Of a stretch of DNA of 26,477 nt, positions 1 through 23,107 are shown piece by piece. The DNA is taken from positions 1-26,477 of IMG/VR virus record IMGVR_UViG_3300042374_000494. One strand, 5' to 3'. The stretch's first letter is position 1. Each line of letters opens with the position of its first letter. This DNA comes from a virus. The notes beneath the pieces were generated by a model. That model saw only the letters and a program-made list of their open reading frames with translations, was not told the origin of the DNA and did not search any database. Position numbers and translations under genes: made by a program.

Positions 1-2330
1 AAACTTGCTCCAGTTGGTAAGATGTTGAAATCTATTACGATAAATTCCGCTGTCTTAGCCGGTTGTAAGAAAATTTGTCCTGCTAATATGTTTCTATCAA
101 TTACATCAGGTGTGTTGTTACTTTCATCCATTACAACTCTGAAAGCGTATAAACCTTGTCTTTGTTGAACTGCCTCTAAGTAAGGGTTCACAGTGTTTAA
201 GAATCTTTGACGAGTTGTAGAAGTATTTTGTTCGAACACTAAGAAACGAGATGTAGATGCGATAAACTTCTTAAGAGTGATAAGTAATCTTCTAACATTG
301 ATTCTATCTAAAGCTGATGCCTTATCTTGCAATGTTTTCTGTCCGAATGCTACAATACCTTGTCCAGGGAATGCTGCGATTGGGTTTACTTTGTTCTCAT
401 ATAGAGTATCTCTTTCAGAATGTGTTAATCTATTCAACACACTAACTGCTCCACTAATACCACCTCTATTCAAACCAGCAGGTGCGAACCATTCAGCTGC
501 CAATCTATCGTTTGCAGCGAATACAGCCGGCATCAATACTGATGGAGGTACACTCATTAATTTGTTACTATTAGTATCAACTGTCTTAACCCAAGGGTAG
601 TAAGTTCCAACATAGTTAGAATCTACTGAATTTGCTTCTTCAGTTGCTTCAGTAATTAATGCGGTTGCTCCCACAAAATCAGCGATATAGAAACAATCTT
701 GTCTATCTTCAACCATATCAATTACTTTTGTAGTAATAGATGGGTGTAAAGAACGAATAATACCAGGAGTTACAACTAAATTAATATCGTATTCATCTGC
801 ATTTGAAATAGCGTTGATTGCTTTTGTATATGCAATTGAACCATTTGTTGAGTTATTTGAAAGGTTAAATCCTTGCGAATTTGCCGTAGTTATTGCTGTA
901 CCTAAGTTTATTTTTGTTGTTGGTGCCATACCATCGAATCCGTATTGGAATCCTAATACAAATTGTCTTTTAACCATATCAGATGAAGTTGAACCAGTCA
1001 TTTGAAATGCTAATTGAGAATCGAATGCGAATGCTACGTTTGCTCCAGTTAATGCTCCGTCAGCAATTGGTTTTAAGTATTGTTTGTTATCATCAGATGT
1101 TCCGATAGTTTCGAAATCAAATCCAGAATAATATACAGGAGATGATGATGTGTTATTTACTGAACCAGTTTGGTAAACTACTGCAGGTACTTTATTTACA
1201 TCTCCAGCTCCCATACGAATTGGATTAACATATGCTCCATGTCCAAATGGTGCTGATGAAATTGGGAATGAACCCGCTTCAGCTACAACCACTCTTACAT
1301 ATTTTGATTTGTTTGAGTAATCACCATTTTCAGTTATTTTACCATCAGATTCAATCGTATTCCATCTATCACCTATTCTTCTAGCTATATAGTTAGGAGA
1401 AGCAGGGTCTAAGTTTACATTATTAAATGTTTCAATTACTGTCTTTCTCTTATCAGTATCACTATATCCTCTTACAGTTACAGTAAATGTTGAGTAATCA
1501 GTTGCTCCATCTTCACCAGCTGCCTTAACATTAGAAATGCCAATTTTGAATTTAGTGTTATATGGAGTACCATGTCCTAAAGTTACAAACTTAAATAAAT
1601 CGTATCTAACGTTGTTGTTATCTTTTTGAGATTTAACGTAAGGAGTTTCAGCTGCACTGATATCACCATATACTTGTGCGGGTAATGCTGATGCTGATAC
1701 ATATGTACCACCTTCCACTCCACCAGCTCCAAATGCTGCGTTAGTGTAATTAGTTGTTGCTATATTTTTGAAATAAGCGTAAGTGTATGCTGTTTTAGCG
1801 CCAAATGGTGAAGTACCAAATGTATCGGCTACATCATTTGTAGCAGTTTCTAAAATAGATGCTGATACAATTCCAAATGAAGAAGATAATACAAAAGAAC
1901 CAGATGCAAATCCAGGTCCAGATGCAGTTGAAGCCATTCCAAAATTTGGTATTCCAAATCCTACTGCTTCATCACCAGCTTCAGTTGAATATAAAACTCC
2001 AATAAGTTTTTCTCCAACCAAACCACCAGATGCGAATATACCAATAGGTGCGGTTTGTTGATAACCACCAATACCACCAACTCTTACGATGGTAGCACTT
2101 CCAGCTTCTCTTAAATAGTTTTGTACTGCATATTCAGTATAATAAGTTCCATCAGGAGTACCGAAGATATCTTCGAATTCTGATTGCGTTCTAACAATTG
2201 TTGGAACAAATGCAGGTCCTTGCTTAAAAGGTCCTATAAATGCTGCTCCAATTTCACCTACTCCTTGCGCTAGGAAGGAAAGGTCATTTTCTCTTGTGAA
2301 TACGCCGGGTGATACGATTCTTTCTGCCAT
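1..2330 (-). CDS. Contractile tail sheath protein (T4 gp18-like), C-terminus cut by window edge
   Basis: Polymerises around the tail tube and contracts to drive the tube through the host envelope. The frame is open for 776 codons and runs off the left edge. It starts at ATG 2330 with MAERIVSPGVFTRENDLSFL, an opening typical of marine T4-like sheath proteins. The C-terminal part reads NPYLEAVQQRQGLYAFRV, then DESNNTPDVIDRN, then QPAKTAEFIVIDFNILPTG, which matches the sheath C-terminal domain (Phage_sheath_1C family) including its conserved NNTP..IDRN segment. T4 gp18 has 659 residues, so this one is longer. The visible end is close to where relatives stop, so I expect few residues to be missing. 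The leader is A-rich (AGAAATAAA directly before ATG) with at best a weak GAGA-type ribosome site. It is the last gene of the block visible here and lies downstream of a 144-base gap holding a hairpin. Function is certain at family level; the exact 3' end is unknown. Confidence 0.95.
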   Translation of the reverse strand, partial: MAERIVSPGVFTRENDLSFLAQGVGEIGAAFIGPFKQGPAFVPTIVRTQSEFEDIFGTPDGTYYTEYAVQNYLREAGSATIVRVGGIGGYQQTAPIGIFASGGLVGEKLIGVLYSTEAGDEAVGFGIPNFGMASTASGPGFASGSFVLSSSFGIVSASILETATNDVADTFGTSPFGAKTAYTYAYFKNIATTNYTNAAFGAGGVEGGTYVSASALPAQVYGDISAAETPYVKSQKDNNNVRYDLFKFVTLGHGTPYNTKFKIGISNVKAAGEDGATDYSTFTVTVRGYSDTDKRKTVIETFNNVNLDPASPNYIARRIGDRWNTIESDGKITENGDYSNKSKYVRVVVAEAGSFPISSAPFGHGAYVNPIRMGAGDVNKVPAVVYQTGSVNNTSSSPVYYSGFDFETIGTSDDNKQYLKPIADGALTGANVAFAFDSQLAFQMTGSTSSDMVKRQFVLGFQYGFDGMAPTTKINLGTAITTANSQGFNLSNNSTNGSIAYTKAINAISNADEYDINLVVTPGIIRSLHPSITTKVIDMVEDRQDCFYIADFVGATALITEATEEANSVDSNYVGTYYPWVKTVDTNSNKLMSVPPSVLMPAVFAANDRLAAEWFAPAGLNRGGISGAVSVLNRLTHSERDTLYENKVNPIAAFPGQGIVAFGQKTLQDKASALDRINVRRLLITLKKFIASTSRFLVFEQNTSTTRQRFLNTVNPYLEAVQQRQGLYAFRVVMDESNNTPDVIDRNILAGQIFLQPAKTAEFIVIDFNILPTGAS

Positions 2331-2933: not shown

Positions 2934-5900
2934 TTATTTTCTATCAAATAAAGTTTTTAGCATTTCTTTGATTTCAGAAATTTCATTATTTTGTTTTTCA
3001 ATAATAGTTTGTTGTTCTTTAATAGCCTCTACTAAAAGTGGAACTAACTTATCGTAATCAATTGTTAGATAGTTCTCACCACTCTTAGAACCTTTTATTT
3101 CTTTAGTTTCTGAATCTATATCAGTATCAAATGGTGCTAAGTGCACAATTTCAGGTAATATACTTTGAACTTCTTGAGCTGACAAACCTAATTGTACTTT
3201 GGTATCAGTATATCCTACTGAATGTGCTAGCTCATTATTTACATAGTAGAATCCATTTAATTTAGATATCTTTTCTAATGGGTTTTCAATATTACCAATT
3301 TTTGTTTTTAATCTTTCATCAGAATAGTATGCTATAATATTTCCTTGTGCAAATATCCAATCATAACAATATATGTTGTTATTGATAATATAGTTAAATC
3401 TAGATGTTGAGTTAAAGTCACCATAATATCCAGTGTCGTGGTCATAGAAAATCGGAGAACGGATATCGTTATACACATATACACCATATGGTTGCATTGA
3501 CATTCTATCTGAACCGGCATAGTATAAGTAAAGAATTGCTCCACTCATTAACCACACCCATCCTCTAGCACTATCATGCACACCAACGTTATCACCCATA
3601 GTACTCATAAAGGTATAACGAGAACCTATACCCCAACCTTGCCAGCCGTTTCTACCACCATCGTAAGTTGTATAGTTACCATAAGGGTTTCCACCACACT
3701 CAGCTGCCCATATACCTCTACCATATGATTGGTTATACAATCCAGTACAACCATAGTTTCTCCACCATCCGTAGTTATAACCCTGGTCTATGTATATTTC
3801 ATTCAAACGGTTGCCACCATTTATATCTAAATAATATCCAGTATTATCTCTATCGTAAATAAAGTTTGTTCTTATCTCATAAAGATAAGTTCTATTTCCA
3901 GAGTAGTGGTTGATGTAAGTTTCATATCCGTTTTGGCAATCTAAGTGTAAGTTACCATTAGTTGTTACAACAGATGCAGTTCCATCGGGTCTACCATTTG
4001 AACCAACATAAAGATATGCTCCCCAAGTTGGGTTAGGTCCATGTAAAGTACCACCACGTTGTCTAATACACGAATTTGATGTACTATTAAAATCTGCATA
4101 ATATCCGGTATCATCTGAATCATAGAATACGTTTGCACGAAGGTCACCAGAACCTCCACCACCATACATAGCGAATTCTTTCCATCCAGAAACTCCACCA
4201 CCCCATTTACCTCTTGCCCAATATCTATTTGCAGTTGCATCACCAGCACCTACCATCATCCAACCATAAGCCGCACCACCATCGGATGTTGCATAGTGTT
4301 GTCCCGATACGATACCTTGTGCGTGAATATATCCACCACCTTGAGGGTGACCTGTTCCACCACCCCAAATATCCCATCCAGCAAATCCAGCTTTCCAAGC
4401 ATTATCCCAGTTTCCAGCAGATGTTCCCCATCCAAAAGTACCTGTCCAATAGTTTGTATCACCAGTATAATCAAATCTAGGAGTAATCCAATGATGACCC
4501 CTATTCATTGCTGCATGTGTTCTATTAGTAAATCTATTTAAGTTTGATGTACCATTTGCATCTAAATACCATCCAGTATCGTGGTCATAGAAAATAGGTG
4601 ACCTCATATCTGCTCTTGCCCAAATAACAGATGCTATTGCCGCATTTGTTGTACCATTTTCTACTACTAATAATCCGTGCGTATTTAGGTAACTAGCTTG
4701 TCCACCTGCGTTTGGATGCGACCAAGATAAACCATATAAGTTACCAAGCGATGTACCATCAACAGGCATTCTCCAAGGAGTACCCATTGAGAATATACCC
4801 TGAAAACGAACTGATGTATAAACTCCGAATATAGTTTGTCCGTAGTTATAATCTAAATAAATATGTTCGTTTGCATCAACTCTAATACCACCATTAGCTA
4901 CTACATAATTTAATCTAGCAGTACCATTAGGGTTTACATAATACGAAGTATCATTTGAATCATAAAATATTGGTGCTCTTAATGAGTTACCGCCAGTTAA
5001 ATAATCGTTGGCGTAAACAGTACCATTTGAATACCATTCCATTGTACTATAACGAGTACCGCTGGTGTTTGTGTTATAGAAATATGTATTACCACCGGTG
5101 TTAAATCTCATATAGGCTTGTCCCTGTCCGCCATTGATTCTACTAAATCCACCAGGTCCACCACCATCGTTTTGTACGTTAAATCCAAAACCACCATCAT
5201 TCCAAGTTACACCAGGTTCAGAAACCCACATTTGTAAATAAGATGGAGTACCAGTACCCATTTCATTTCCTCTAGCAGTTAATCTAATTGTAGAGTTACC
5301 ATGCCCACCTGCTACTTCAAATCTACCTCTTACATAAGAACCACCATTTAAGTCAGTATAGTATTCCGTATTATCGGAATCATAGAATATAGGTGCTCTC
5401 ATAGATGATGCAGCCTGTAAGTATCCTTCTGAATATGTGTATCCAGAATAAAAATACATTCTGTACGAACCTCCTCTAGTTATTCTTAAATCGTGATTTG
5501 TAAATGAACCAACAACCGATAATCCACCAACATGTGAGAACATACCAGTTTCAATACCTTCACTTCTAGCATAAACTCTTATAATTGAGTGAGGACCATT
5601 TGAAACGTGAAGTTGAGTACCCCATCCACCAGGATCGGACCAATCACTACCACCATCACCAACATATAAGTTTCTTAATCTAGAAGATGAGTTAAGGTCT
5701 AAACGGAATGTAGTATCTGCTGAATCATAAAATACAGGTGCTCTCCAATCGGATGTTGCTGTACCAGTACCAGTTATTACCATGCCACCAGAAAATCCAA
5801 AACGAGAATAAGTTGTACCATTGTTTCTTAATGCCAAATGATGGTCATATCCACTTCCATATTCATAAGCCAATCCATACATATTACCCAATGGCCAGCT

Positions 5901-8900
5901 TTCTCCAATTGTCCAAATTACTTTGTCAGCAGTACCCGTAGAATTATAATCACCCATCAAACCACCTCTATCACGACTTACTAAATAGTTAGTGTAATAT
6001 GAACGAGCGTACATATTAAGAGTACTATTTACATTTAATCCAAGTAAATTAGATGTTGAAGCAGGGTCTGTGTAATATCCGGTATTATTTGAATCATAGA
6101 ATATTGGTGCTCTCATATCACCATCTGCCTGCATTTGACCTGCTCTATTAAAATAGAATCTATCACCAATTCCATTAAAATGGAAAATTAATGCTTCATA
6201 TCCATTCCAACCATCATTTACCAACCAAGGGTAATATGAATTGCTATATGCAGTATTGCTTAAACCAATTAAATATCTATTATTGTGAGATAATTGTAAA
6301 GCGTAAGTATTTCCACCATTAAAGTTACCACTATTACCGACTTTTAATGCCAATAATCTAGATTGATTATCACCATCTACATAATATGCACTATTATTAG
6401 AATCGTAATAAATTGGAGAATACATTGCACTTCCCGCTTGAACATTAGTACCAGCATAGAATGATACTGGTGTTCTTAAATTACGAAGGTCACCTGATAT
6501 ATTTGAATATGAATCGGATTCTATTGCTACTGAATATCCTTCAGCAACATCCATTATTCCACTATAATATGAACCATTTTGTATTTTTCTTAAAACAACT
6601 TGTCCATAAGACCAAGATGATGAACCATTACCAATTACGATACAATATCTACCATCTTTAACACCAACTCTTACAGGTTTATCAGTTTGTCCAATTACTT
6701 CTGCATTTATGTTATACCACGCACCATTCCAGTTATGTCCACCAACTCTTACAGTTGATGCAGCATTTCCATTATATTCGTAGATATCAATTACAGCATG
6801 AATCATACCATAGTTACCAGTTCCGCCAGGGAATTTAATAACTACTGCTCCAGTTGCACCCGTTGCTCCCCAAACTGCGTAAGGTCTACCTACTAAGTTA
6901 TCTTGCTTTATACCACCTGCTACTCTTAAAGATGTTGCTGTTGTGGCTGGGTTTAAGAAAAATGCGGTATTGTCTTGGTCATAGAATATTGGAGAACGCA
7001 TTGAACCATCTGAAAACATATTACCAGATGTATCTATACCAGCTACTGTTCTACCTGCCGCTTCTGAATAAAAATGGAAACTTTCCGTACCAACTAATTG
7101 TGATGATGTTCTTTTACCTACATACCAACTGCTACCAGATCCTCCAATATAGCGAACCATTGCTTCATAGCCATTACCCGGATTAATAGTAAGATATTTA
7201 TGAGCTGCGCCTGTTATATTAATAGGAGTGTTGTTTCCTCCAATCATACCAATATAAGAAACATCATTGATACTATTACCATTCAAATACATCGTACCAT
7301 ACAACCAGTTTGTACCAGTTGAATAAATACCAGATGGATGATATGATGCGTTTCCAGTTCCTGCTACGTTACTATTTCCCTGATAAGAATATGCTTGTAA
7401 TGTATTTAAGTTTGAGTTACCAGCTCCATTTATAAAATATGCTGTATTATCCGAATCATAAAATATTGGTGCTCTAAAATCTACGTTAGCAGTAATATTT
7501 CCAGAACTATTAATATTCATTCTTAAACTTCCACCAGTAGCATGAGTAATTGCATTATGTGTATAAAAATCTATTTGAGTTGCTGGGTTAGCTTCATATA
7601 TATTTCCTCCAATATAAATTTGGTTTGCGGCTGCACTATTATATGCTCCTATAATGGTTGTTCCTTGTGCTTGTGATGTTGCATTATAGTGAGTACCAGT
7701 TAAAGTTGAAAATTTATTACTACCTTCACCAGCAGGTCCCATTAGGATATTACCACCACTACTATTACCAGCAGCGGTTAATCTTATTTTATTAAATGAT
7801 GGTGAATCTGAAGTTCTTACCGCCTGATTTAAATAATCTGAAAATTGATAACCATCCCATAAATCTGCATTAAGATTAGTAACAACAGTTGTTGATGTTA
7901 CTGCCAATGGAGATGTACCAGTTGCTACAGTTGATGTTATTCTATTGAATGATGGTGAATCAGATGTACGGACATTTTGGTTCATTAAATAAACCTCAGT
8001 TGCTCCTTGCCCAGTATCAATTGTACCACTAAGAACTACATTACCACCTACTTCTAATGTATTATCAGCATACCATCTGTCCGTTGATTCGTTCCAATAA
8101 AATGATACGGTGGATGCATTACCTCTCTTAACTTCTATACCAGCATTTTCAGTTGGTGCAGTTGATGCTCCAATATCTGCATTAAGTGTAATAATATTAT
8201 CACCTATGTTAAGAGTTGTTGTATTAATATATGTTGTTGTACCACTTACAGTAAGGTCACCACTAATTGTAGCGTTACCAGTTACTGCTAATGTAGTACC
8301 ATCAAATCTTAAATTTGCTTCAACGGTTGCGTTTGGTGCAGTTCCGTTTAATGTGATTACACCATTATCAGTTGTACCAGTTAATGATAGTAACCCAGAT
8401 GTGCCAGATGTACCACGTGTTCCTGATGTACCGCTCGTGCCAGAAGTTCCACTAGTCCCAGACGTACCACCACTACCAAAGGTTCCTGATGTACCAGAAG
8501 TTCCTGATGTGCCACCACTTCCAGAAGTTCCTGATGTGCCACTACTTCCAGAAGTTCCTGATGTACCTCTAGTTCCACTTGTGCCAGAAGTTCCCGATGA
8601 ACCACTTGCTCCAGAAGTTCCTGATGTACCAGAAGTTCCCGATGAACCATTTACTCCACTTGTACCAGAAGTTCCTGATGTGCCACGAGTTCCAGAAGTT
8701 CCTGATGTGCCACTACTTCCAGCAGAACCACTTATTCCAGAAGTTCCTGATGTTCCTGATGTGCCAGACGAACCACTTATTCCGCTAGTCCCACTACTAC
8801 CACTTATTCCAGAAGTTCCTGATGTTCCCGATGAACCGGCACTTCCACTTACACCACTTGTACCAGAAGTTCCCGATGTACCATTTGAGCCCGAAGAACC

Positions 8901-10580
8901 TTGTGCCCCAGAAGTTCCTGATGTACCATTTGAACCTGAAGAACCTTGTGCTCCAGAAGTTCCAGAAGTTCCTGATGTACCATTTGTACCAGAAGAACCT
9001 TGTGCTCCAGAAGTTCCTGATGTGCCTCTAGTTCCAGAAGTTCCCGATGAACCACCAGTACCACTTACTCCACTCGTCCCACTACTTCCAGAAGTTCCTG
9101 ATGTGCCACTACTTCCAGAAGTTCCTGATGAACCCGATGTGCCAGAAGTTCCCGATGAACCACTTCCTCCGCCAGCTCCAGTTATACCAGAAGTTCCTGA
9201 TGTACCACTTGTGCCAGAAGTTCCCGATGTGCCACGAGTTCCAGAAGTTCCTGATGTACCGCTTGTACCTGAACTACCACCAGCACCACCAATACCGCTT
9301 GTACCAGAAGTTCCTGATGTGCCGCTTGTACCAGAAGTTCCTGATGAACCACTTACTCCGGAACTACCACTACTACCACCAGCACCACTTACTCCAGAAG
9401 TTCCTGATGTTCCAGAAGTTCCACTACTACCATTTGAACCCGATGTGCCAGAAGTTCCCGATGAACCACTTGCTCCACTTGTACCACTACTTCCACTAAT
9501 TCCACTTGTACCAGCTGAACCAGTAGAACCTGAAGTTCCAGCCGAACCAGAAGTTCCTGATGTACCTCCACTACCAGAAGTTCCTGATGTGCCAGAAGTT
9601 CCCGATGTACCACGAGTTCCAGAAGTTCCTGATGAACCTGATGTGCCAGAAGTTCCAGCCGAACCAGATGTTCCTGATGAACCAGAAGTTCCCGATGTGC
9701 CAGAAGTACCACTACTTCCACTTGTCCCACTACTTCCAGAAGTTCCTGATGAACCAGACGTTCCTGATGAACCTGATGTCCCACTACTTCCAGAAGTTCC
9801 TGATGAACCACTTGTACCACTACTTCCACTTGTGCCGCTTGTACCGCTTGTGCCAGACGTTCCTGATGTGCCGCTTGTACCTGATGTACCAGACGTTCCA
9901 GAAGTTGCTGCTGCAAATCTTCTACTAATTCTTCCTGTTGTTGTATTAAGAACTAATACTTCGTTTGTTGTATTATCAGTTGGTATTGTATCGCCAGTAA
10001 CAAACATTGAACCACTAACTGATAAACTACCAGTTATTTGTTGGGTATCGTTTGATGCATCACCAAATTTGTTACTTCCACTTGCGTAGATTATAGAAGA
10101 TGAGATGTATGTTGCAAATAATTCCGTTGTATTTATTTTTCCAGCTACATTTAAATCTCCTTTGAATATACCACTACCAGTTACAATTAAAAAATCATTA
10201 ATCGTAACTCCTGTATTAATTCTTACTCCTTGATTTGGAGATATTTGTGCAGTTACAGATCCTGATTTTATTCTATTAATATCACCAATTGAATCTGCTG
10301 ATATATTAAATAATCCACTACCATCTCCTCTAAATAATGATGCCGTTACAAATGATGAAACACTAAGTGAACCAGTTATTTGAGTATCCGATTTTAATTT
10401 CAACGGATTACTTCCAAATGAATCTATTTCATCCGTTTGTATTTTGGAAGCACTAAAATTTCCAACCACATCTACCGATTGTGATGAAAAACTAGCTATT
10501 CTACTTCCACTTACAAATAAAGAAATTGTATCTTTATTTTGTTGATTTAAACCATTAGGATTGTTACCCAAATACTCCAT
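2934..10580 (-). CDS. Giant tail fibre (2548 aa): collagen-like stalk, 11 FYDS modules, S74 self-cleaving chaperone
   Basis: A receptor-binding fibre predicted to trimerise. Residues 1-224 hold beta modules shared with the other giant fibre: GDGSGLFNI, the SGSVTAQISPNQG motif, and SSIIYASGSNKFGD near 161-175. Residues 225-729 are uninterrupted Gly-X-Y, mainly GTS and GSS triplets, with six Arg and no acidic residues. A connector (LTGTTDNGVITL, INTTTLNIGDNIITL, NVRTSDSPSFN) typical of marine T4-like fibres follows. From about residue 1030 to 2385 there are eleven copies of a module marked by RAPIFYDSDNTAYY-type sequence. The C-terminus is a Peptidase_S74 intramolecular chaperone. Its SDERLK motif places the catalytic Ser at 2420 and Lys at 2425, so cleavage would release the last ~129 residues, which end in a coiled coil. 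It starts at ATG 10580, 11 bases after the 110-aa gene. It is likely a long distal fibre; the receptor is unknown. Confidence 0.92.
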   Translation of the reverse strand: MEYLGNNPNGLNQQNKDTISLFVSGSRIASFSSQSVDVVGNFSASKIQTDEIDSFGSNPLKLKSDTQITGSLSVSSFVTASLFRGDGSGLFNISADSIGDINRIKSGSVTAQISPNQGVRINTGVTINDFLIVTGSGIFKGDLNVAGKINTTELFATYISSSIIYASGSNKFGDASNDTQQITGSLSVSGSMFVTGDTIPTDNTTNEVLVLNTTTGRISRRFAAATSGTSGTSGTSGTSGTSGTSGTSGTSGSSGTSGSSGTSGSSGTSGSSGTSGSSGTSGSSGTSGSSGTSGTSGTSGSSGTSGSAGTSGTSGSSGTSGTRGTSGTSGTSGTSGSGGTSGTSGSAGTSGSTGSAGTSGISGSSGTSGASGSSGTSGTSGSNGSSGTSGTSGTSGVSGAGGSSGSSGVSGSSGTSGTSGTSGTSGTSGIGGAGGSSGTSGTSGTSGTRGTSGTSGTSGTSGTSGITGAGGGSGSSGTSGTSGSSGTSGSSGTSGTSGSSGTSGVSGTGGSSGTSGTRGTSGTSGAQGSSGTNGTSGTSGTSGAQGSSGSNGTSGTSGAQGSSGSNGTSGTSGTSGVSGSAGSSGTSGTSGISGSSGTSGISGSSGTSGTSGTSGISGSAGSSGTSGTSGTRGTSGTSGTSGVNGSSGTSGTSGTSGASGSSGTSGTSGTRGTSGTSGSSGTSGTSGSGGTSGTSGTSGTFGSGGTSGTSGTSGTSGTSGTRGTSGTSGLLSLTGTTDNGVITLNGTAPNATVEANLRFDGTTLAVTGNATISGDLTVSGTTTYINTTTLNIGDNIITLNADIGASTAPTENAGIEVKRGNASTVSFYWNESTDRWYADNTLEVGGNVVLSGTIDTGQGATEVYLMNQNVRTSDSPSFNRITSTVATGTSPLAVTSTTVVTNLNADLWDGYQFSDYLNQAVRTSDSPSFNKIRLTAAGNSSGGNILMGPAGEGSNKFSTLTGTHYNATSQAQGTTIIGAYNSAAANQIYIGGNIYEANPATQIDFYTHNAITHATGGSLRMNINSSGNITANVDFRAPIFYDSDNTAYFINGAGNSNLNTLQAYSYQGNSNVAGTGNASYHPSGIYSTGTNWLYGTMYLNGNSINDVSYIGMIGGNNTPINITGAAHKYLTINPGNGYEAMVRYIGGSGSSWYVGKRTSSQLVGTESFHFYSEAAGRTVAGIDTSGNMFSDGSMRSPIFYDQDNTAFFLNPATTATSLRVAGGIKQDNLVGRPYAVWGATGATGAVVIKFPGGTGNYGMIHAVIDIYEYNGNAASTVRVGGHNWNGAWYNINAEVIGQTDKPVRVGVKDGRYCIVIGNGSSSWSYGQVVLRKIQNGSYYSGIMDVAEGYSVAIESDSYSNISGDLRNLRTPVSFYAGTNVQAGSAMYSPIYYDSNNSAYYVDGDNQSRLLALKVGNSGNFNGGNTYALQLSHNNRYLIGLSNTAYSNSYYPWLVNDGWNGYEALIFHFNGIGDRFYFNRAGQMQADGDMRAPIFYDSNNTGYYTDPASTSNLLGLNVNSTLNMYARSYYTNYLVSRDRGGLMGDYNSTGTADKVIWTIGESWPLGNMYGLAYEYGSGYDHHLALRNNGTTYSRFGFSGGMVITGTGTATSDWRAPVFYDSADTTFRLDLNSSSRLRNLYVGDGGSDWSDPGGWGTQLHVSNGPHSIIRVYARSEGIETGMFSHVGGLSVVGSFTNHDLRITRGGSYRMYFYSGYTYSEGYLQAASSMRAPIFYDSDNTEYYTDLNGGSYVRGRFEVAGGHGNSTIRLTARGNEMGTGTPSYLQMWVSEPGVTWNDGGFGFNVQNDGGGPGGFSRINGGQGQAYMRFNTGGNTYFYNTNTSGTRYSTMEWYSNGTVYANDYLTGGNSLRAPIFYDSNDTSYYVNPNGTARLNYVVANGGIRVDANEHIYLDYNYGQTIFGVYTSVRFQGIFSMGTPWRMPVDGTSLGNLYGLSWSHPNAGGQASYLNTHGLLVVENGTTNAAIASVIWARADMRSPIFYDHDTGWYLDANGTSNLNRFTNRTHAAMNRGHHWITPRFDYTGDTNYWTGTFGWGTSAGNWDNAWKAGFAGWDIWGGGTGHPQGGGYIHAQGIVSGQHYATSDGGAAYGWMMVGAGDATANRYWARGKWGGGVSGWKEFAMYGGGGSGDLRANVFYDSDDTGYYADFNSTSNSCIRQRGGTLHGPNPTWGAYLYVGSNGRPDGTASVVTTNGNLHLDCQNGYETYINHYSGNRTYLYEIRTNFIYDRDNTGYYLDINGGNRLNEIYIDQGYNYGWWRNYGCTGLYNQSYGRGIWAAECGGNPYGNYTTYDGGRNGWQGWGIGSRYTFMSTMGDNVGVHDSARGWVWLMSGAILYLYYAGSDRMSMQPYGVYVYNDIRSPIFYDHDTGYYGDFNSTSRFNYIINNNIYCYDWIFAQGNIIAYYSDERLKTKIGNIENPLEKISKLNGFYYVNNELAHSVGYTDTKVQLGLSAQEVQSILPEIVHLAPFDTDIDSETKEIKGSKSGENYLTIDYDKLVPLLVEAIKEQQTIIEKQNNEISEIKEMLKTLFDRK
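3430..7485 (-). repeat. Array of 11 FYDS modules in the 2548-aa fibre
   Basis: Eleven protein-level repeats with core [MLDW]R[AST]P[IV]FYD[SHQR][DN][ND]T, then an aromatic pair and a short SxLN-type strand. Cores lie near residues 1033, 1193, 1385, 1488, 1615, 1726, 1865, 1990, 2145, 2233 and 2372. Copies 8 and 11 read FYDHDTG and lack one residue compared with the rest. The sequence between cores (about 90-190 residues) is diverse, rich in Gly, Asn, Tyr and Trp, and differs from copy to copy. The conserved core with a variable filling suggests a repeated trimeric knob or blade. Confidence 0.85.
8394..9906 (-). repeat. Collagen-like Gly-X-Y stalk of the 2548-aa fibre (DNA repeat)
   Basis: About 505 residues (225-729) of Gly-X-Y triplets, mostly GTSGTS. 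At DNA level the commonest unit is 18 bases, GGN ACA TCA GGA ACT TCT, so adjacent triplets use different synonymous Thr and Ser codons. Minor variants are AQGSSG, SGSAGSSG, GAGG and six GTRGTSG. No Pro, Asp or Glu is seen. The repeat also opens a long false reading frame on the plus strand. Confidence 0.9.
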
Positions 10581-12631: not shown

Positions 12632-15600
12632 TTAACTTAAATTTTTACCGGCTACAAATCCATAATATGTAGTACCACCATTAAATGTGTAGAATACTAA
12701 TACATCAACACCAGACGATGTTAGAATTGGTGCACTTCCACCAGCCCAATCAATACTAGCAGGCCATGTAATTGAATATGCCCCAGCATTTACAACTACT
12801 AAAGTAAATCCAAATGCGTTTGATGCAGGTGGGTTAGTAAACGTTATTGTTGATGTACCATTAAATTGTCTTCTAAAGTTGTTTGCTGTTGATAAATCTA
12901 AAGTTACACTACCACCAGTTGATAAATCAGAATAAGTTTCTCTGAATGTTGTTGATGCAATATAATTTGTTGAACTTATATATCCACTAGCTCCTATATT
13001 TCCAGTTAAGCTTATTGTAGTACCATCAAATGTTAAATTAGGTTCGGCCTGAACGCCTATTGGTGAATCTATATATGTAAGTACTGCATTATTAGTTGTA
13101 CCTGTTATTTGCAATCCAGATGTACCAGAAGTTCCGGAACTGAATCCTACTGCCGATGTACCACTACTACCACTTATTCCAGAAGTTCCAGAAGTAAATC
13201 CAGGTGCATTTGTTCCAGAAGTTCCAGAAGAACCAGCTGCTCCAGTAGAACCATTAGCTCCACTAGTACCACTACTTCCAAAGAATGTACCATCCAATCC
13301 AGAAGTTCCTGATGTCCCAGACGTTCCAGAAGTAGATGTTAAGCCGGATGTACCAGCCGAACCACTTGTACCAGAAGTACCACTACTACCAAAGAATGTT
13401 CCATCAAATCCAGATGTACCACTAGTTCCAGAAGTTCCGTTTGACCCACTTATACCGCTTGTGCCAGAAGTTCCTGATGTTCCACTCGTACCACTACTTC
13501 CAAATAAAGTTCCATCTAAACCAGAAGTTCCCGATGTACCAGAAGTTCCTGATGAACCACTTACTCCAGAAGTTCCTGAAGTTCCTGATGTACCAGAAGT
13601 TCCACTGCTACCAAAGAATGTTCCATCGAATCCAGAAGTTCCTGATGTACCAGACGTTCCTGATGAACCACTTACTCCACTTGTGCCAGAAGTACCGCTT
13701 GTTCCCGATGTACCACTACTACCAAAGAATGTACCATCAAATCCAGATGTACCGCTTGTACCGCTTGTACCAGAAGTTCCATTAGTTCCGTTTTCTCCAC
13801 TTGTGCCAGAAGTTCCCGAAGTACCAGATGTACCTGATGAACCGAAGAATGTACCATCCAATCCGCTTGTACCAGAAGTTCCGCTTGTACCAGAAGTTCC
13901 GCTTTCTCCAGATGTGCCAGACGTTCCTGATATTCCAGAAGTTCCACTACTTCCAAACATTGTACCATCCAAACCAGAAGTTCCAGATGTTCCATCCGTG
14001 CCACTTATACCACTTGTACCGCTTGTACCATTTTCACCAGAAGTTCCAGAAGTTCCAGAAGTTCCCGATGAACCAAAGAATGTACCATCTTGTCCAGAAG
14101 TTCCCGATGTACCGCTTGTACCAGAAGTTCCTGAAGTACCGGATGTTCCTGATGTGCCACTTTCTCCGCTTGTACCAGATGAACCAAAGAATGTTCCATC
14201 TAAACCGCTTGTACCAGAAGTTCCATCTGTACCGCTGATTCCACTTGTACCATTTGTACCATTCTCTCCAGAAGTTCCTGATGAACCACTTGCTCCAGAA
14301 GTTCCTGATGACCCAAAGAATGTTCCATCTAAACCACTTGTACCAGAAGTTCCCGATGTACCATCACTTCCGTTTATACCACTTGTGCCAGATGTTCCCG
14401 ATGTACCACTACTTCCACTAGCTCCAGAAGTTCCTGATGAACCGAAGAATGTACCATCTTGTCCAGAAGTTCCTGATGTGCCATCTATTCCAGATGTACC
14501 ATCACTTCCGTTTACACCACTCGTACCAGAAGTACCACTACTTCCACTTTCTCCAGAAGTTCCTGATGAGCCAAAATATGTTCCGTCTAAACCAGATGTG
14601 CCAGATGTTCCCGATGTACCACTTACTCCAGAAGTTCCTGATGTACCATCACTTCCAGAAGTTCCTGATGTGCCATCACTACCAGAAGTTCCCGATGTGC
14701 CAGAAGTTCCTTCAGAACCATTTGTACCTGAAGTTCCTGATGTGCCACTTGTACCATTACTTCCCGATGTACCACTTGTACCATCACTTCCAGAAGTTCC
14801 CGATGTGCCATCTATACCAGATGTACCCGAAGTTCCTTCAGAACCATTTGTACCAGAAGTTCCAGCCGAACCATTTGTGCCAGAAGTTCCTGAAGTTCCA
14901 GATGTACCATCTGAACCACTTGTACCGCTTGTGCCAGATGTGCCCGAAGTTCCATCACTACCACTTATACCAGAAGTTCCTGATGTGCCAGAAGTTCCCG
15001 ATGTACCATCTAATCCACTTGTTCCAGAAGTTCCTGATGTGCCACTTGTCCCAGAAGTTCCTTCAGAACCATTAGTACCACTAGTGCCGCTTGTGCCACT
15101 ACTACCACTTGTACCACTACTACCACTTGTACCTTCGGTTCCCGATGTACCAGAAGTTCCTGATGTGCCAGAAGTTCCTGATGTGCCACTACTACCACTC
15201 GTACCGCTTGTACCAGAAGTTCCCGATGAACCTTCACTACCAGAAGTTCCCGATGTGCCAGAAGTTCCTGATGTTCCAGAAGTTCCGCTTGTGCCACTAC
15301 TTCCAGATGTACCATCACTACCTGATGTTCCCGATGTGCCAGAAGTTCCAGATGAACCAGAAGTTCCTGATGAACCAGTTGAGCCTGAAGTGCCAGAAGT
15401 TCCTGAAGAACCTGAAGTACCACTACTTCCAGCTTCACCATCCGAACCACTTGTACCAGAAGTTCCTGATGAACCAGTTGAGCCTGAAGTGCCAGAAGTT
15501 CCTGAAGAACCTGAAGTACCAGAAGTTCCTGATGTACCAGCCGAACCAGATTCACCAGCAGTACCCGAAGTGCCCGCAGTTCCACTACTACCAGACGTAC

Positions 15601-18600
15601 CGCTTGTGCCAGAAGTTCCACTACTACCATTTGAACCAGATGTGCCAGAAGTTCCTGATGTACCAGAAGTTCCCGATGTGCCAGCAGTTCCTGCCGAACC
15701 TGTACTACCATTACTTCCACTTGTACCAGAAGTTCCTGATGTGCCACTTGTTCCTGATGTTCCACTACTTCCAGAAGTTCCTGATGTGCCAGAACTTCCC
15801 GATGTTCCTGATGTGCCAGAACTTCCCGATGTGCCAGAAGTTCCTGATGTACCTCTAGTTCCAGAAGTTCCCGATGTGCCAGATGACCCAGAAGTTCCTG
15901 ATGTACCGCTTGTACCATCCACTCCACTCGTACCAGAAGTTCCTGATGTACCACTCGTACCGCTTGTGCCAGAAGTTCCTGATGTACCGCTTGTGCCGCT
16001 TGTACCAGAAGTTCCTGATGTGCCAGAAGTTCCTGAAGAACCTTCACTACCAGAGGTTCCCGATGTTCCACTACTTCCGCTTGTACCAGATGAACCTTCA
16101 CTACCAGAAGTTCCTGATGTACCAGACGTACCAGAACTTCCACTCTCTCCGCTTGTACCAGAAGTTCCTGATGTACCTGATGTGCCATCCGTACCACTTA
16201 CTCCAGAAGTTCCTGAAGTACCAGAAGAACCAACTGCAGCTGCTATATTTCTATATGCTAATTTTTTTGATATAGTATCCCATATTACTACTTGCTCATA
16301 AGATGCGGATGGTAAATTTCCTAACAATACACTACCACTAACTCCCAAACTTCCACTAACAGTTAAGTTTGCGTTAATACTACTATCTTTGTTTACCTGT
16401 AAGAATGATGCTGTATTTACTCCTTCCGCATTTAGAGCGTAAAGAGCGTATGATGCGGTAAATGCTAATGAAGCAGTACCAACCAACATCGAAGAAGTTT
16501 GTGAACTAAGTAAATCACCAGTACCAGTACCACCAGTACCACCGCCACCTAATATTCTTACTAATACACCATCTGAACCAGACGATATTACATCAACACC
16601 AGAACCAGTAAAATGAATTTTTCCTACTTGTGCTTTTACTAATGAACTCGTTTGGTATATAAATAATTCAGTACCACCACCTACACCTGCGTTTAATGCG
16701 TAAGATGCGGTTAATGCGTAAGAAGAACTTACTGCACTAAATACAGCCATTGATGATGTTTGTGAATTTCTTACAAAATTTTCTAAATCACCCAATGCTG
16801 CCAATGCCCCACTATCAAATCCAACAATACTTTCAGCTATACCAGCTCTAATTGCGTATGATGATGATAAAACATTACCAACTACTCTATCACCAGTTAT
16901 TGTTCCATTGATTAATGAACCACCACTACCAATTACAACATGCCCACTAGTCAATCCACTAAATACAATTTGAATAGTATCATCATCAATTGATTTTATT
17001 GTGCCAGGTAAAATTTGGTCTTCCGAACCAGTAGCATAAACCTGAACCATTGGGTATCTGATTCCTAAATTATGTACAATAGTTAAATTACTTACATTAT
17101 TAAATGATACAGTTTCAGTTAATGAAGTTTCAGGTTGTGGAATAAAATATCCTCTATTCTCATCAAATCTTAAAATATCATACTGCGCCGATGCAGTTGG
17201 TCCTACTCCTTGGAAATTATATGTACCTAAGAATGAACCACTTACTAATGGAGCAAATACTCTATTTGAAGCAGTAATATCAGTTGCAGTTAAATCATTA
17301 CCAACATAAAGATTACCCCAAATTGATGAAGATGTATTTACTACAAATCCTTTATCAGGAGAAATTGATGCGGTATATGAACCACTCTTTAATATAAATG
17401 TTTCAAATGATAAGTTAGCAATATTGATGTTAGTTAATCCACTACCATCTCCAATGAAAGCAGAACCAGAAGAAAGTATAACGTTTCCACCAGTAACAAA
17501 TAATCCACCACTAACACTTAAATTACCAGACACAAATGTCCTAGTACCAATTTCCAAACCTTTGTTTGGAGATATTACCGCCTGAACTGAACCTGATATA
17601 ATTCTATCTAATTTAAGGTCTTGTAATGCGTTTGCAGGAATGTTAAATAATCCACCACCATCACCTATATAAAGTGCTGCAGTTATTGGTACGTTTACAT
17701 CTAATTTTTCTGGGTCAATAATAGCAACACCAGAACCAGAATTAATTTTAAATAATTCAAGTCCTTCAATTGATTCCGGTGGGATATTAAATAATCCACT
17801 ACCATCACCATAGTAAACAGATGCGGTAATTGAACCACTAATTGCTACTGATGATGTAAATTGAGATTTATATGAACCAGAAGATGGTGCTGTAATTACT
17901 TGGAATAGTTCACCACTTGCCACCGATGCAGTTGCTGAACCACTTGCTATCAATGGTGCGGCTGATGCTTGTACGTTTGTTATAAATCTACCATCACCAA
18001 AAAGAAATCCTCTTGCTGTTAAATCATCTGCTCTTAATGAACCACTAACATCAATTGAACCAGTAAATCTAGAACCAATAGCCGAACCAGTTACAGCAGT
18101 TGTTACTATAAATGTATCTCCACTTTGAACGGATGCCGTTGCAGAACCACTACCAATGAATGGTGCAGCTGCTGCTTGTACGTTTGTAATATATCTACCA
18201 TCACCAACAAAGAATTGAGATTGTACGCTACCACTAACATCCACACTACCCGTTATACGAGTACCAATTTGATAATCAAGCCCAGAACCAGTTGCTCCAG
18301 TAGTTACTATAAATGTATCACCACTTGTTACAGAAGCTGTTGCAGAACCACTTGCTATTAATGGAGATGCTGCCGCTTGTACATTTGTTATAAATCTACC
18401 ATCACCAATAAAAAATCCATCATTTGATAATCGTACACTTCCACTTACTGAAATACTTCCACTAAATTGTGAACCACTATCTTGCGATTGAACTCTAAAT
18501 CCAAAATTAGGAGATACTGATGCAGTTACCGAACCGGATTTAATTTCCGTTGATACTAATGCATCTTCCGTTAATGCTGAACGAGGAATGTTTCTAAGAT

Positions 18601-21600
18601 ATGTTCCATCCGCAAATATAAATGATGATGAATTTATAAATAGTCCTCCACTGTTTTCGTTTATAAACAAACTACCACTTACATCAACCGAACCAGTAAA
18701 TTTAGAAGCGATTTGAGTTTTATATATAAAATCTGGGTTACCATCTAATACATTTATAACTCCCGCCATTGATGAATGGAATTCACAATTATAATATAAT
18801 GTATTTGGTGCACTTCCAGAAACTAAAAATCTTATTTGTCCATTATCTTCACCATTATTTGTAACCCAACTATTATAAAAATTACTATTACCAATGCCAG
18901 GTGTTTGATTAATCCAAAATGGATGCCCACTTGCATTTACATTAAAAACATATTCATAATTTCTATGTAATGTAAGTGTAGGATTTGAACCACTTATTAA
19001 CCTATTACTTATATTATAATTGCCACTTCCATCATTAGTTACAATGAATACATTATCAAATTCCAAAGAAGATGTAAATGGAGTTTTAACTACGAATCCA
19101 AAATCAGGTGAAACCGATGCAGTTACAGAACCAGATTTAATTTCTGCTGAAACCAATGCATCTTCCGTTAATGCTGCTCTAGGAATATTTCTTAAAAAAG
19201 TACCTTGTGCGTATATGAATGATGATGAATCAATTCTAATACTTCCACTAAAGTCAGAACCACTTTCAAATGATGCTACTCTAAATCCAAAATTAGGAGA
19301 TACAGATGCAGTTACACTACCACTAGCAATTCTAACAGTATCCCCAGATATTGCAGATTGTGGAATATCAAATAATCCTTTACCGCTACCACTAAACATT
19401 GAAGCGGTAATATTTCCATCAACTTTAGTTTCTCCAATTAATGTTATTTCAGCTGGAACATATAATGCATCTACTACATTGATAGTACCTGCCATTGATG
19501 AGTGTAATTGGCAATTATAATATAATGTATTTGGTGCACTACCAGAAACTAAAAATGTTATAACACCAACATCATCTCCATTATTAGTTATCCAAGAATC
19601 GTATGCATTATTAGTACCAATGCCACTTACCGATTTAATCCAAAATGGATGGCCTGATGCATTAACATTAAATACATATTCTACATTTCTAACTAAAGTT
19701 AAAGTTGGGTTTGAACCACTTACTAATCCGTTACTAATATTATATAAACCAGAACCATCATTAGTTACCGTAAATACAGTATCTATATCATAGTGTGGTA
19801 TTTCTCTTGCCGATGATGATACAATAAAACTTCCACTAATTGTAGAGAATGTATTTACTCTAAGACCATAATCTGGCGAAATCGATGCCGTTGCCGAACC
19901 ACTTGCAATTCTATTAATTTTAAATGATAATGCTGATTCAGGAATATCACTTAATCCACCACCACTACCACTAAAGAACGAGCCACTTTCAACTCTAATA
20001 TATCCACCACTTACAAATAAACTACCACTAAATTGTGAACCGCTTTCAATTGATGTTACTTTAAATCCTTCATCAGGACTTACCGAAGCAGTTACACTAC
20101 CACTTTTAATTTCAACACTTAATAAAGCGTCTTGTGTTAATGCAGAACGAGGTATGTTTCTAAGATATGTACCTTCAGAAAATATAAATGAAGATGAATC
20201 AATTAAAACACTACCACTAAATGATGAACCACTTTCAAATGATTCAACTATAAATCCAAAATTAGGAGATACAGATGCAGTTACACTACCACTAGCAATT
20301 CTTTTTAATTCTTCAGATAATGCTGAGAATGGAATATCCGTTAAACCAGCACCACTACCACTAAATACCGATGCTGATACCGACCCAGAGAAATTGGATA
20401 CTGATGCAAATACTTCAAATCCTCTATCAGGAGAAACTGATGCAGTTACACTACCACTAAATATTTTTGAAAGGTCTAAATCTGCTAATGCCGATAATGG
20501 TATATCATATAATCTTGCACCACTACCAGAATATGAACCAGAGTATAATTCTATACCACTGCCACTTACAAAAATAGAACCTGTAAACTGAGAACCGCTT
20601 TCTATTGATTCAACTTTAAATCCAAATTGAGGAGAAACAGATGCTGTTACGCTACCACTTTTAATTTCAGTACTTAATAAAGCATCTGGCGTTAAAGCTG
20701 CTCTTGGTATATTAAATAAGTTTGCACCACTACCAGAATAAGTTGAACCAGAAGTAATTGAAACATTTCCATTTACAAGCACACTACCACTTATACTCAC
20801 ACTACCACTAAAGGCAGAACCCCTTTCAACTGATGTTACAATAAATCCAGTAATATTATCAACTGATGCAGTAACAGAACCAGAAACTATTTTTGATGAT
20901 AATTGAGGAGGTACTGATATATTAGTTAATTTACTACCATCACCTTCAAAAAATGCAGCTAATACAGAACCAGTAACATATACTGAACCACTTATATCAA
21001 TAGAACCTGTAAATTGTGAACCACTTTCCAATGATTCAACTCTAAAGCCATCATCAGGATTTACTGATGCCGTTATACTTCCACTTGCTATTCTGAATGA
21101 ATCTCCAGTAAAAGCAGAACGAGGTATATTAAACAATCCAGCACCATCACCTTGTATAAATGATGCTGAGAATGAACCAGTAAATTCTCTTGCTTTTACA
21201 ACATCTCTTACAAATAAACTTCCAGTAATAACTTCATCGCCATATATAAGAACACCACTATTTCTTTCAACTAATTGGTCTACTATATTAATAGTACCAT
21301 ACATAGCAGGTCCGTTCTGAGAATTATAATATAATGTATTTGGTGCGTTTGAAGGTACTGCAAATGTTATAGTACCATTATCTACTCCGTTATTAGTTAC
21401 ACCATCACTATAAGCTCCACCAGTCCCAGTACTAATTTCAGTTTTAATCCAAAATGGTTGAGTTGGTGCCGTTATATTGAATGTATATTCTATACCCCTT
21501 ACTAAAGATATTGTAGGATTTTGTCTTGTAGTATCACCATCAAATTGATATGCCGCGTTTGAATCATTTACTACACTAAATACTGTTTTTAAAGATTCAG

Positions 21601-23107
21601 TTGCGTAATATTTTGCAGATGCTGATATTATCATACTACCACTAAAGGTAGAGAACGTATTTACTATAAGTCCATTATTAGGAGAAATTGATGCTGTTGC
21701 AGAACCACTACTAATTTTTGTTAAATCTAAATCTTTTAATGCCTTTACAGGAATATCAAATAATCGTTCACCACTACCAGAAAAAGATGAACCAGAAGTT
21801 ATTTCTATACCTCTAGCCCCACTTACAAAAAGTGAACCTGTGAATTGAGAACCTGTTTGTTCCGATATTACTCTAAATCCAAAATCAGGAGAAGTTGATG
21901 CAGTTACACTACCACTTGCTATTAATGTTGCTACTAACGCATCAGGAGTTAAGGCAGAACGAGGTATATTAAATAATTTTTCACCACTACCACTATAATA
22001 TGCACCAACTGCTAATTCAACATTGCCACTTACAAATAAACTACCAGTAAATTGAGAACCAAATTCAGCAGATTTTACTACAAGTCCAATATTTGGTGCA
22101 ACGGAAGCAGTTACACTACCACTTGCTATTAATGTTGCATCTTCCGATAAAGCTGATTGTGGGATATCAAATAATCCTCTACCAGAACCAGAATACATTG
22201 ATGCGGTTATTGTTGTATTAACTACCAATCCTAAGTTTGGTGAAATTGATGCAGTTGCAGAACCACTAGCAATTCTAGTTGATACCAATGAATCAATATT
22301 TAGTGCTGAGAATGGGATATTAAATAATCCCTCACCACTACCACTAAAGAATCCACTTCCAGATGGTATTGTTATATTTCCACTTACAAAAAGAGAACCA
22401 GTAAATGTAGAACCACTTACTGTTGATGTTACTAAAAAACCTTCATTTGGTGATACCGATGCGGTTACCGAACCTGTTACTAATCTTGTTGCTTGAGGTA
22501 AATTAAATATATCTCTACCATCCCCAAAGAAAGAACCGGTAAATGAACTACTTATTGATTGTGATGCAGTTATGTCATTTACAATAATAGATGAACTAAC
22601 TAATACAGAACCAGTAAATTGTTGTCTATCATCATAATTATCACCAAAAACATTTGAGCCTGATGAATAAATTATAGAAGATGAAATATAATTTACAATT
22701 ATACTTTCAGCATAGATTGTATCATCAACATAAAGGTCACCTTGAATTCTAGTGTTTGTATTTACAACTAAATTTCCTTCTACAAAAGATGCAGTTGCTG
22801 AACCACTAGCTATTTTAGTAGCAGCTGGTAAATTAAATAATCCTTCACCATCGCCAATAAATGAACCAGTAAATGAACCTGTAAATTGTCCAGTTACTCT
22901 ATCTAAATCTAAACTTCTTACAAATCCTCTATTACCCTGGTCATCCGAAACTACAATAGCTGGATTTGTTAATAGTGAAGCAGAAAAGTTAGGAACACCT
23001 AAATTCGGCTCTGCTTGGGATAAATCCAAGAATTGATACCTGTCAGATGTTACATTTTTCGGGCTTACAACCCTTACCCTGCCCGTTAATAGATTACTTA
23101 TTGCCAT
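12632..23107 (-). CDS. Giant tail fibre (3491 aa): 22 beta modules, 3 cupredoxin-like domains, acidic collagen-like stalk
   Basis: One uninterrupted 3491-codon frame. Residues 1-75 are unique and may anchor the fibre. Residues ~75-1945 carry 22 modules of roughly 80 residues, each with GDGxGLFNIP and [16 protein letters not shown] motifs. [14 protein letters not shown] lies near 142-155. Three cupredoxin-like domains are inserted at ~500-610, ~1110-1212 and ~1350-1456. Domains 2 and 3 keep a His-Cys-His-Met set (H1153, C1199, H1202, M1205; H1395, C1441, H1444, M1447) and domain 1 has lost it. A VHNLG...SGHVVI beta domain spans ~1995-2060, followed by [13 protein letters not shown] repeats. 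Residues 2293-3331 are Gly-X-Y. The end (~3331-3491) is a beta domain with [12 protein letters not shown] and FVAGKNLS, common at phage fibre C-termini. There is no S74 chaperone. It starts at ATG 23107 with GGA 9 bases upstream. The collagen/connector plan is shared with the 2548-residue fibre, implying paralogy. Confidence 0.9.
13115..16231 (-). repeat. Collagen-like Gly-X-Y stalk of the 3491-aa fibre (DNA repeat)
   Basis: About 1040 residues (2293-3331) of Gly-X-Y, dominated by GTS and GSS. By hand count there are about 44 Asp/Glu, one Arg and no Lys. The DNA uses the same 18-base alternating-codon unit as the other stalk. The part nearer the C-terminus carries twelve evenly spaced interruptions, annotated separately. 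Near the end the pattern frays ([25 protein letters not shown]). Confidence 0.9.
13280..14578 (-). repeat. Twelve phased [12 protein letters not shown] interruptions in the acidic stalk
   Basis: Twelve copies of [LQF]DGT[FYML]FGSSGTSG between residues 2844 and 3275. Each has GTFFG, four residues per glycine instead of three, so each shifts the triplet phase by one. Successive copies are 111, 111, 111, 111, 120, 111, 120, 111, 129, 129 and 129 bases apart in plus-strand order. These are 37, 40 or 43 residues: 12, 13 or 14 triplets plus one. Confidence 0.9.
17335..22870 (-). repeat. Array of 22 short beta modules in the 3491-aa fibre
   Basis: Protein-level repeats with motifs GDG/GSGxGLFNIPxxAL, then [RKE]I.SGS[VA]TAS[VI]SP[ND]xGFxV, then SGSxFTGSxxVSGS. 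I count 22 copies of the SGS[VA]TAS-type motif; the last copies are more diverged ([25 protein letters not shown]). The average spacing is about 84 residues, with longer intervals where cupredoxin-like domains are inserted. One copy also occurs at the N-terminus of the 2548-residue fibre. Confidence 0.85.

Follow-up and report, generated by a model that had tools for sequence, protein, structure and literature searches.

The stretch analysed here (the window; IMG/VR virus record IMGVR_UViG_3300042374_000494, 26,477 bases) raises the question of whether a phage fibre can hold type-1 copper sites or uses a copper-protein fold only as a knob or spacer. Three cupredoxin-like domains of about 102 residues each are set into the shaft of a giant collagen-like tail fibre encoded in the window. 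A sequence-only reading had proposed that a His-Cys-His-Met copper-ligand set is intact in two of these domains and erased in the third, and this three-domain observation was confirmed. The domains and the codons of their ligand residues are located as follows.

21272-21577, minus strand: cupredoxin-like domain 1 (D1), residues 511-612, ligands erased; predicted local distance difference test (pLDDT) of the model 95.9, best structural match Z 10.6
21302-21460, minus strand: erased site of D1, with Q550 at 21458-21460, S596 at 21320-21322, G599 at 21311-21313 and the kept M602 at 21302-21304
19463-19771, minus strand: cupredoxin-like domain 2 (D2), residues 1113-1215, ligands intact; pLDDT of the model 96.8, best structural match Z 11.4
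19649-19651, minus strand: H1153 codon (D2)
19511-19513, minus strand: C1199 codon (D2)
19502-19504, minus strand: H1202 codon (D2)
19493-19495, minus strand: M1205 codon (D2)
18737-19045, minus strand: cupredoxin-like domain 3 (D3), residues 1355-1457, ligands intact; 74% identical to D2
18923-18925, minus strand: H1395 codon (D3)
18785-18787, minus strand: C1441 codon (D3)
18776-18778, minus strand: H1444 codon (D3)
18767-18769, minus strand: M1447 codon (D3)

All residues named in the sequence-only reading were found at these positions, with 46 residues between the first and second ligand positions in each of the three domains; D1 is 52% identical to D2. The further proposal that the site had been conserved twice and lost once also held. 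D2 and D3 show the type-1 order His, Cys, His, Met in alignment with known ligands and D1 does not, while copies in the D1 slot of three other loci (L010, L011, and L012) are intact, so that D1 is most simply a loss. The nearest kin of D1 in the tree are the D1-slot copies of L010 and L011 (Shimodaira-Hasegawa-like approximate likelihood-ratio support 84, under the 95 mark). A sequencing error is unlikely, since the erased D1 sequence is identical in three separate assemblies (L001, L002, and the window). The entire fibre of 3491 residues contains only two Cys, both of which are ligands (C1199 and C1441), and nine His (1105, 1153, 1202, 1381, 1395, 1444, 2012, 2056, and 2165).

AlphaFold2 models of D2 and D1, built from alignments of 72 rows, were predicted with high confidence (pLDDT values as listed above) to be cupredoxin barrels and not barrels of another kind. 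A Foldseek search against the PDB returned 13 chains at E <= 1e-3, 12 of which were titled rusticyanin, AcoP cupredoxin, or Hyphomicrobium copper nitrite reductase; the title of the thirteenth (3cvd), which we take to be a plastocyanin, holds no protein name. In VIA-align, D2 was placed first on chain 2dv6_A, a copper nitrite reductase (Z 11.4, root-mean-square deviation 2.3, 94 residues aligned, chain residues 24-135), followed by two sister structures and then by rusticyanin 2cal (Z 10.6, root-mean-square deviation 2.3 over 94 residues). The erased D1 matched the same proteins (2dv6_A, Z 10.6; 2cal, Z 10.3). As a separate observation, short 'beta-sandwich protein' entries of Pithovirus- and Marseillevirus-like records in BFVD (A0A481Z6J5, A0A481YVH3, A0A481Z7Q7, and others) have predicted structures similar to that of the domain (E about 9e-8 to 6e-6).

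Sequence profiles provided a second line of comparison. Profile A5 consisted of 36 diverse, hand-picked copies, all of them intact, and its invariant columns (H47, Y91, C93, H96, and M99) are therefore not independent evidence of conservation, which comes instead from the ligand tallies over the whole collection of copies. Its matches in the PDB were weak but consistent: 9cck (E 7.2e-4), 6hbe (E 2.4e-3), and plastocyanin 2plt (E 9e-3). In the alignment with 2plt, the His, Cys, His, and Met of the profile fell on those of plastocyanin; with 9cck and 6hbe, only the Cys-x2-His-x2-Met loops were aligned. Copper proteins were reached at E < 0.01 with this wider profile only: D2 alone gave no PDB match at E <= 10, and the narrow profile A3 gave weak matches only, with Auracyanin B (E 0.36) beside an oxidase-like protein, virus spike proteins, and a ribosomal protein. 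Comparison of A3 with a Polaribacter azurin (L104) by hhalign yielded a probability of 1.1, with only the end of the domain aligned. An At5g54830-like Pfam domain overlapped 42 of 72 copies (best E 1.9e-5) and was not used as evidence.

A search for the ligand pattern in other fibres, suggested by the sequence-only reading, found it widely. Viral loci were fetched with the patterns PNTLYYN and [TN]VF[TIS]V[TV]ND, neither of which demands any ligand, and 70 such loci, 11 cellular loci, and the window (82 sources) contained 154 stretches. Addition of 19 isolate-phage regions, chosen because they matched, brought the collection to 180 stretches (120 distinct) in 101 sources. These 19 regions were selected for spread from 326 matching records, and isolate counts thus represent a sample. 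This occurrence in the scanned sources, together with the use of the fibre's only two Cys as ligands, argued against a chance resemblance. After removal of six fragments, 114 distinct copies had all four ligand columns filled, although these columns are uncertain in the partial and very divergent PLIN copies of L062-L064. The full set (HCHM, in one-letter code) was present in 96 copies, HCHA in three, and 15 lacked both Cys and the second His. By group, intact copies amounted to 2 of 3 in the window, 58 of 74 in viral contigs (three of the remainder being HCHA), all 11 cellular copies, and 25 of 26 in isolates. The HCHA copies, with Ala in place of the axial Met (L068:5974-6303, L069:5956-6297, and L070:5956-6297; 3 of 114), constitute a subfamily of their own.

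Within the 114 distinct copies, Cys and the second His were both kept in 99 and both lost in 15, and never did one occur without the other. With phi 1.0, this association came first among the 1830 pairs that can be drawn from 61 moderately conserved columns, and the pairs of the first His with Cys and with the second His ranked third and fourth (phi 0.84). The column spacing Cys-3-His-3-Met (or Ala) was the same in all 148 stretches with His-Cys-His (duplicates included), and the first His lay 46 residues from Cys in 106 of these and 41 to 76 in the rest. The ligand Cys was encoded by TGT in 50 and by TGC in 46 of the 96 intact copies, and both synonymous codons likewise occurred at each His. 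In 36 of 54 viral open reading frames (ORFs) with the domain (the window's included; some are fragments or near-copies), no Cys other than ligand Cys was present.

We consider it probable that the intact knobs bind copper, and that the metal holds the knob together and makes its contact face complete. Each cupredoxin unit would form a side knob on the shaft of a long fibre, and intact copies would bind a single copper ion, picked up during assembly or from the surrounding water, in a type-1-like site with an amicyanin-type loop. At one end of the barrel, the ion would bridge the strand that carries the first His and the last loop, which holds Cys, His, and Met; this would stiffen the knob, and the metal-completed face could then meet a component of the host envelope. 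All three steps are inferred, with a likelihood that falls from copper binding through stiffening to host contact. A stiffening role fits the behaviour of azurin, whose pathway of mechanical unfolding changes with copper, part of the chain being held by the metal (PMC5792602, in the portion available), and host contact by a metal face would possibly parallel the proposal for iron in phage fibres (available portion of PMC11705849). The fold alone would have a second, metal-free task as knob, spacer, or adhesive surface, which would allow copies to lose the site and still be kept.

Copies without the site are consistent with such a second task. For erased copies and their intact kin, non-synonymous (dN) and synonymous (dS) divergence were 0.31 and 1.73 (D1-L010), 0.20 and 0.86 (L004-L006), and 0.10 and 0.69 (L053-L050). 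The low dN relative to dS fits continued purifying selection, but such pairwise values do not separate the erased from the intact branch and dS is near saturation for D1. It thus seems that the fold is also useful in the absence of metal; the site is kept in most copies, not all.

A number of further observations weigh against the copper-clamped knob. Pro follows the first His in 94 of the 96 intact copies, a position at which known cupredoxins usually have Asn. No Pfam copper family matched the three domains of the window, with no hit to PF00127 (Copper-bind) up to E 10, and PF00127 matched relatives weakly (10 of 36, best E 0.0017). The PROSITE pattern PS00196, in the form found in the available portion of PMC517927, matched none of the 96 intact copies, and neither did its Cys-to-Met core, which demands Pro or Gly between Cys and His. 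Best-stretch E-values in the A5 search were weaker (9cck, 0.0055; 6hbe, 0.53; 2plt, 0.011), the first His in the A5-9cck alignment did not fall on a ligand, and unrelated penicillin acylases appeared at E 0.03, at about which value noise starts. Relatedness of the copies inflates column association: the best tree, from which the ligand columns were left out, needs at least seven changes at Cys, and only three of these losses are forced by well-supported branches, for which reason the independent-pairs test (p 0.25, not significant) cannot reach significance. A lost copy occurred in 16 of 53 multi-copy ORFs, many of the 16 being near-copies of each other; ten retained an intact copy and six (L059-L064) did not. 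The ORFs of L065, L066, and S-B43 each have a single, erased copy. Fibres without any intact copy indicate that metal is dispensable in some fibres. Finally, the domain found no match in the three records whose tail sheaths are nearest to that of the window (3-2330, minus strand), namely Microcystis phage Mel-JY01 (48%), an uncultured phage (44.5%), and Flavobacterium phage immuto (41%). The domain thus behaves as a mobile fibre module and not as a lineage marker.

Several of these observations would be accommodated if the cupredoxin fold served only as a knob or adhesive module, with the four residues kept for packing or stability and no metal in the virion. The confident cupredoxin model of the erased D1, the ORFs that lack any intact copy (6 of the 53 with several copies and some with a single one), and the failure of PS00196 all favour this explanation. 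Two His and a lone Cys at a fixed spacing from Met in 148 of 148 stretches would, however, be odd for packing, and packing residues usually tolerate single changes, whereas Cys and the second His are never kept singly. Moreover, Met, the most packing-like of the ligands, is the one most often kept alone (nine copies with Met and without Cys). We regard a purely structural role as unlikely, and similarly so a metal site that serves mainly redox chemistry or receptor mimicry, in which the fibre would dock on a copper-uptake or electron-transfer protein of the host as a copper 'Ferrojan Horse'. This last explanation shares the metal site with the copper-clamped knob and differs from it in purpose, and the likelihoods given to the alternatives therefore do not sum to one. 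We know of no host partner, a receptor common to Synechococcus and Prochlorococcus phages and Flavobacteriaceae genomes is not evident, and the annotation of gp9-type connectors places the domain at the baseplate instead of the tip of a fibre. On the other hand, type-1 sites expose a ligand His at their docking face, and the carriers of the domain are fibres, a baseplate connector, and lipoprotein-like bacterial proteins. Phage fibres can, moreover, carry metal: gp37 of T4 is described as binding iron through HxH motifs, and motifs of this kind are reported in marine phages (PMC11705849, available portion).

Considerably less probable is a different metal, such as zinc, in the Cys-His-His-Met set, or a role of the lone Cys in interchain disulfides. 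Apo-cupredoxins can take other metals, and phage fibres are as a rule trimers, which would place three Cys at each level. Disulfides would leave unexplained why the second His comes and goes with Cys, and the alignment with the plastocyanin site is complete, Met included, although the identity of a metal is beyond the reach of sequence. It is very improbable that a generic fibre beta-sandwich resembles cupredoxins by chance. Middling Z scores are common, unrelated models typically reaching a best Z of 7 to 8, and the penicillin acylases in the profile search would suit such a resemblance. Against it stand the Z of 11.4 over 94 of 109 residues, the copper-protein titles of 12 of the 13 best Foldseek chains, and the separate match of the sequence profile to copper proteins, in which the ligands align.

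Among 50,697 phage records, 326 matched D2 at 1e-5, by name 258 Synechococcus phages, 45 cyanophages, and 19 Prochlorococcus phages. Aquatic phages carry the domain widely in their fibres and baseplates. Nine cyanophage gp9-type connectors, annotated or recognisable as such (L090, L091, L092, L094, L097, L098, L099, L101, and L102), carry it at or near the C-terminus with HCHM ligands, and the connector of S-RIM2, the one tested, begins with T4_gp9_10_N. In seven of these loci (L090, L091, L092, L098, L099, L101, and L102), the gene after the connector bears a second, very divergent copy, also HCHM. The domain is found near the N-terminus of a hypothetical protein in the podoviruses P-GSP1 and P-SCSP2 (Autographiviridae), behind a subtilase domain in S-CAM4, at four places in P-SSM2, and in a protein annotated as subtilisin-like protease in S-H9-1, for which the best 60 of 116 PDB matches were subtilisin-type proteases. 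Two cyanophage subtilase-like proteins (L095:779-2827 and L096:1318-3324) end in the domain with an intact site.

In cellular genomes, the domain constitutes a 146-residue protein in a Bdellovibrionales metagenome-assembled genome, with which a PDB search found no copper protein, and the C-terminal part of CHRD proteins in Polaribacter and Flavobacterium (flavobacterial loci L072:5512-6312 and L074:4738-6312). A sample of 199 genomes of Flavobacteriaceae, the family of Polaribacter, included 22 with matches at E <= 0.001, some of them weak. The N-termini of the cellular proteins look like lipoprotein signals, and the trait common to all carriers is that they are exposed, either on virions or, as is probable for the cellular proteins, at the surface of the cell.

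The fibre gene of the window and its other parts are located as follows.

12632-23107, minus strand: collagen-like giant tail fibre gene, a single intact ORF of 3491 residues; Pfam Collagen E 2.8e-114, PHROG tail fibre families
16298-23107 (approximate limits), minus strand: N-terminal two thirds, a repeat-built shaft holding all three domains, with 19 SGSxTASV-type and 17 GDGxxLxNI-type repeat motifs
12953-16276 (approximate limits), minus strand: Gly-Thr-Ser collagen-like repeat stretch, about residues 2296-3325; Pfam Collagen match and repeats
12635-12952 (approximate limits), minus strand: C-terminal tip region; phrog_19200, a virion structural protein family, matches residues 3285-3489

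Neighbours of this gene include the tail sheath, a second collagen-like fibre, and a tail assembly chaperone, which identify the window as the tail region of a contractile-tailed phage. The second giant fibre (2934-10580, minus strand; 2548 residues) ends in a Peptidase_S74 chaperone domain and contains no copper-type domain, all three places in the window lying in the other fibre. Long frames opposite both fibre genes (13461-16301, plus strand, 946 residues, opposite the collagen-like repeats; 8110-10089, plus strand, 659 residues) are probably composition artefacts. The gene psbA was absent from all ten kin contigs and present in P-SSM2; since Mel-JY01, which infects a cyanobacterium, lacks it as well, these results speak neither for nor against a cyanobacterial host. 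A plasmid search yielded no match.

Among the literature matches listed (open-licence papers, no preprints), none described cupredoxin domains in phage fibres, which does not imply absence from print. The domain appears to be a widely distributed version of a known fold, in a context that the literature searched does not describe. It may have been overlooked because PS00196 misses all 96 intact copies and PF00127 misses the domains of the window. If the intact sites are filled, virus particles may carry protein-bound copper. We put forward, tentatively and with somewhat more doubt than conviction, that many aquatic phage virions are copper proteins, with type-1-like sites in fibre or baseplate that possibly number from several to dozens per particle. 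If true, one step of host attachment or of tail triggering would depend on metal in these phages, and they would be carriers of protein-bound copper in lakes and seas. A blue-copper-like site conserved both in fibres and in the connector of cultured cyanophages suggests a possible function for a domain now annotated as hypothetical or 'connector', and prompts one to ask whether infection depends on copper.

In the available portion of PMC11705849, metal in phage fibres is treated as iron held by HxH motifs; gp37 of T4 binds iron in this way and such motifs are reported in marine phages ('Ferrojan Horse'). The fibre studied here shares with these the proposal of metal binding but differs in its ligands and their arrangement, and no HxH pair occurs among its nine His. 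The cyanophage gp9-type 'baseplate wedge tail fiber connector' (phrog_677; S-RIM2, S-SSM5, and P-SSM7) has the same domain at its C-terminus with the ligands intact, but is a short protein with one copy. D2 matched phrog_677 with E 8.1e-23; the isolated domains of the window cover only positions 301-411 of its 412, and phrog_677 was absent from the 23 PHROG families of the whole fibre. No copper-domain annotation was found for these connectors in the 19 regions viewed.

The cupredoxin domains of copper nitrite reductases (2dv6, 6tfo, 6tfd, 9cck, and 6hbe) gave both the best fold match (2dv6) and the best sequence matches (9cck and 6hbe, with C-x2-H-x2-M loops as here). They too are accessory domains in larger proteins, serving an enzyme there and a virion fibre here. 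Amicyanin (TIGR02657), a protein of methylamine oxidation, shares the Cys-x2-His-x2-Met loop but not its context, and the NCBIfam amicyanin model overlapped 4 of 72 copies (best E 0.01). In the available portion of PMC517927, the Cys, His, and Met of the amicyanin loop (1AAC) are at positions 92, 95, and 98, and the first His is 39 residues from Cys, as compared to 46 here.

Plastocyanin has its ligands at His37, Cys84, His87, and Met92 (same portion of PMC517927). The likeness to it drawn in the sequence-only reading held for the distance from His to Cys (46 here, 47 in plastocyanin) and from Cys to His (three in both), as well as for the barrel and the four ligands aligned on 2plt, but not for that from the second His to Met, which is three here and five in plastocyanin. 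Pro after the first His and embedding in a fibre further distinguish the domain from this soluble carrier. With a plastocyanin-like His-Cys distance, an amicyanin loop, Pro after the first His, and no match to PS00196, the domain is not plastocyanin, azurin, or amicyanin; by its predicted fold and ligand order, it belongs to the cupredoxins.

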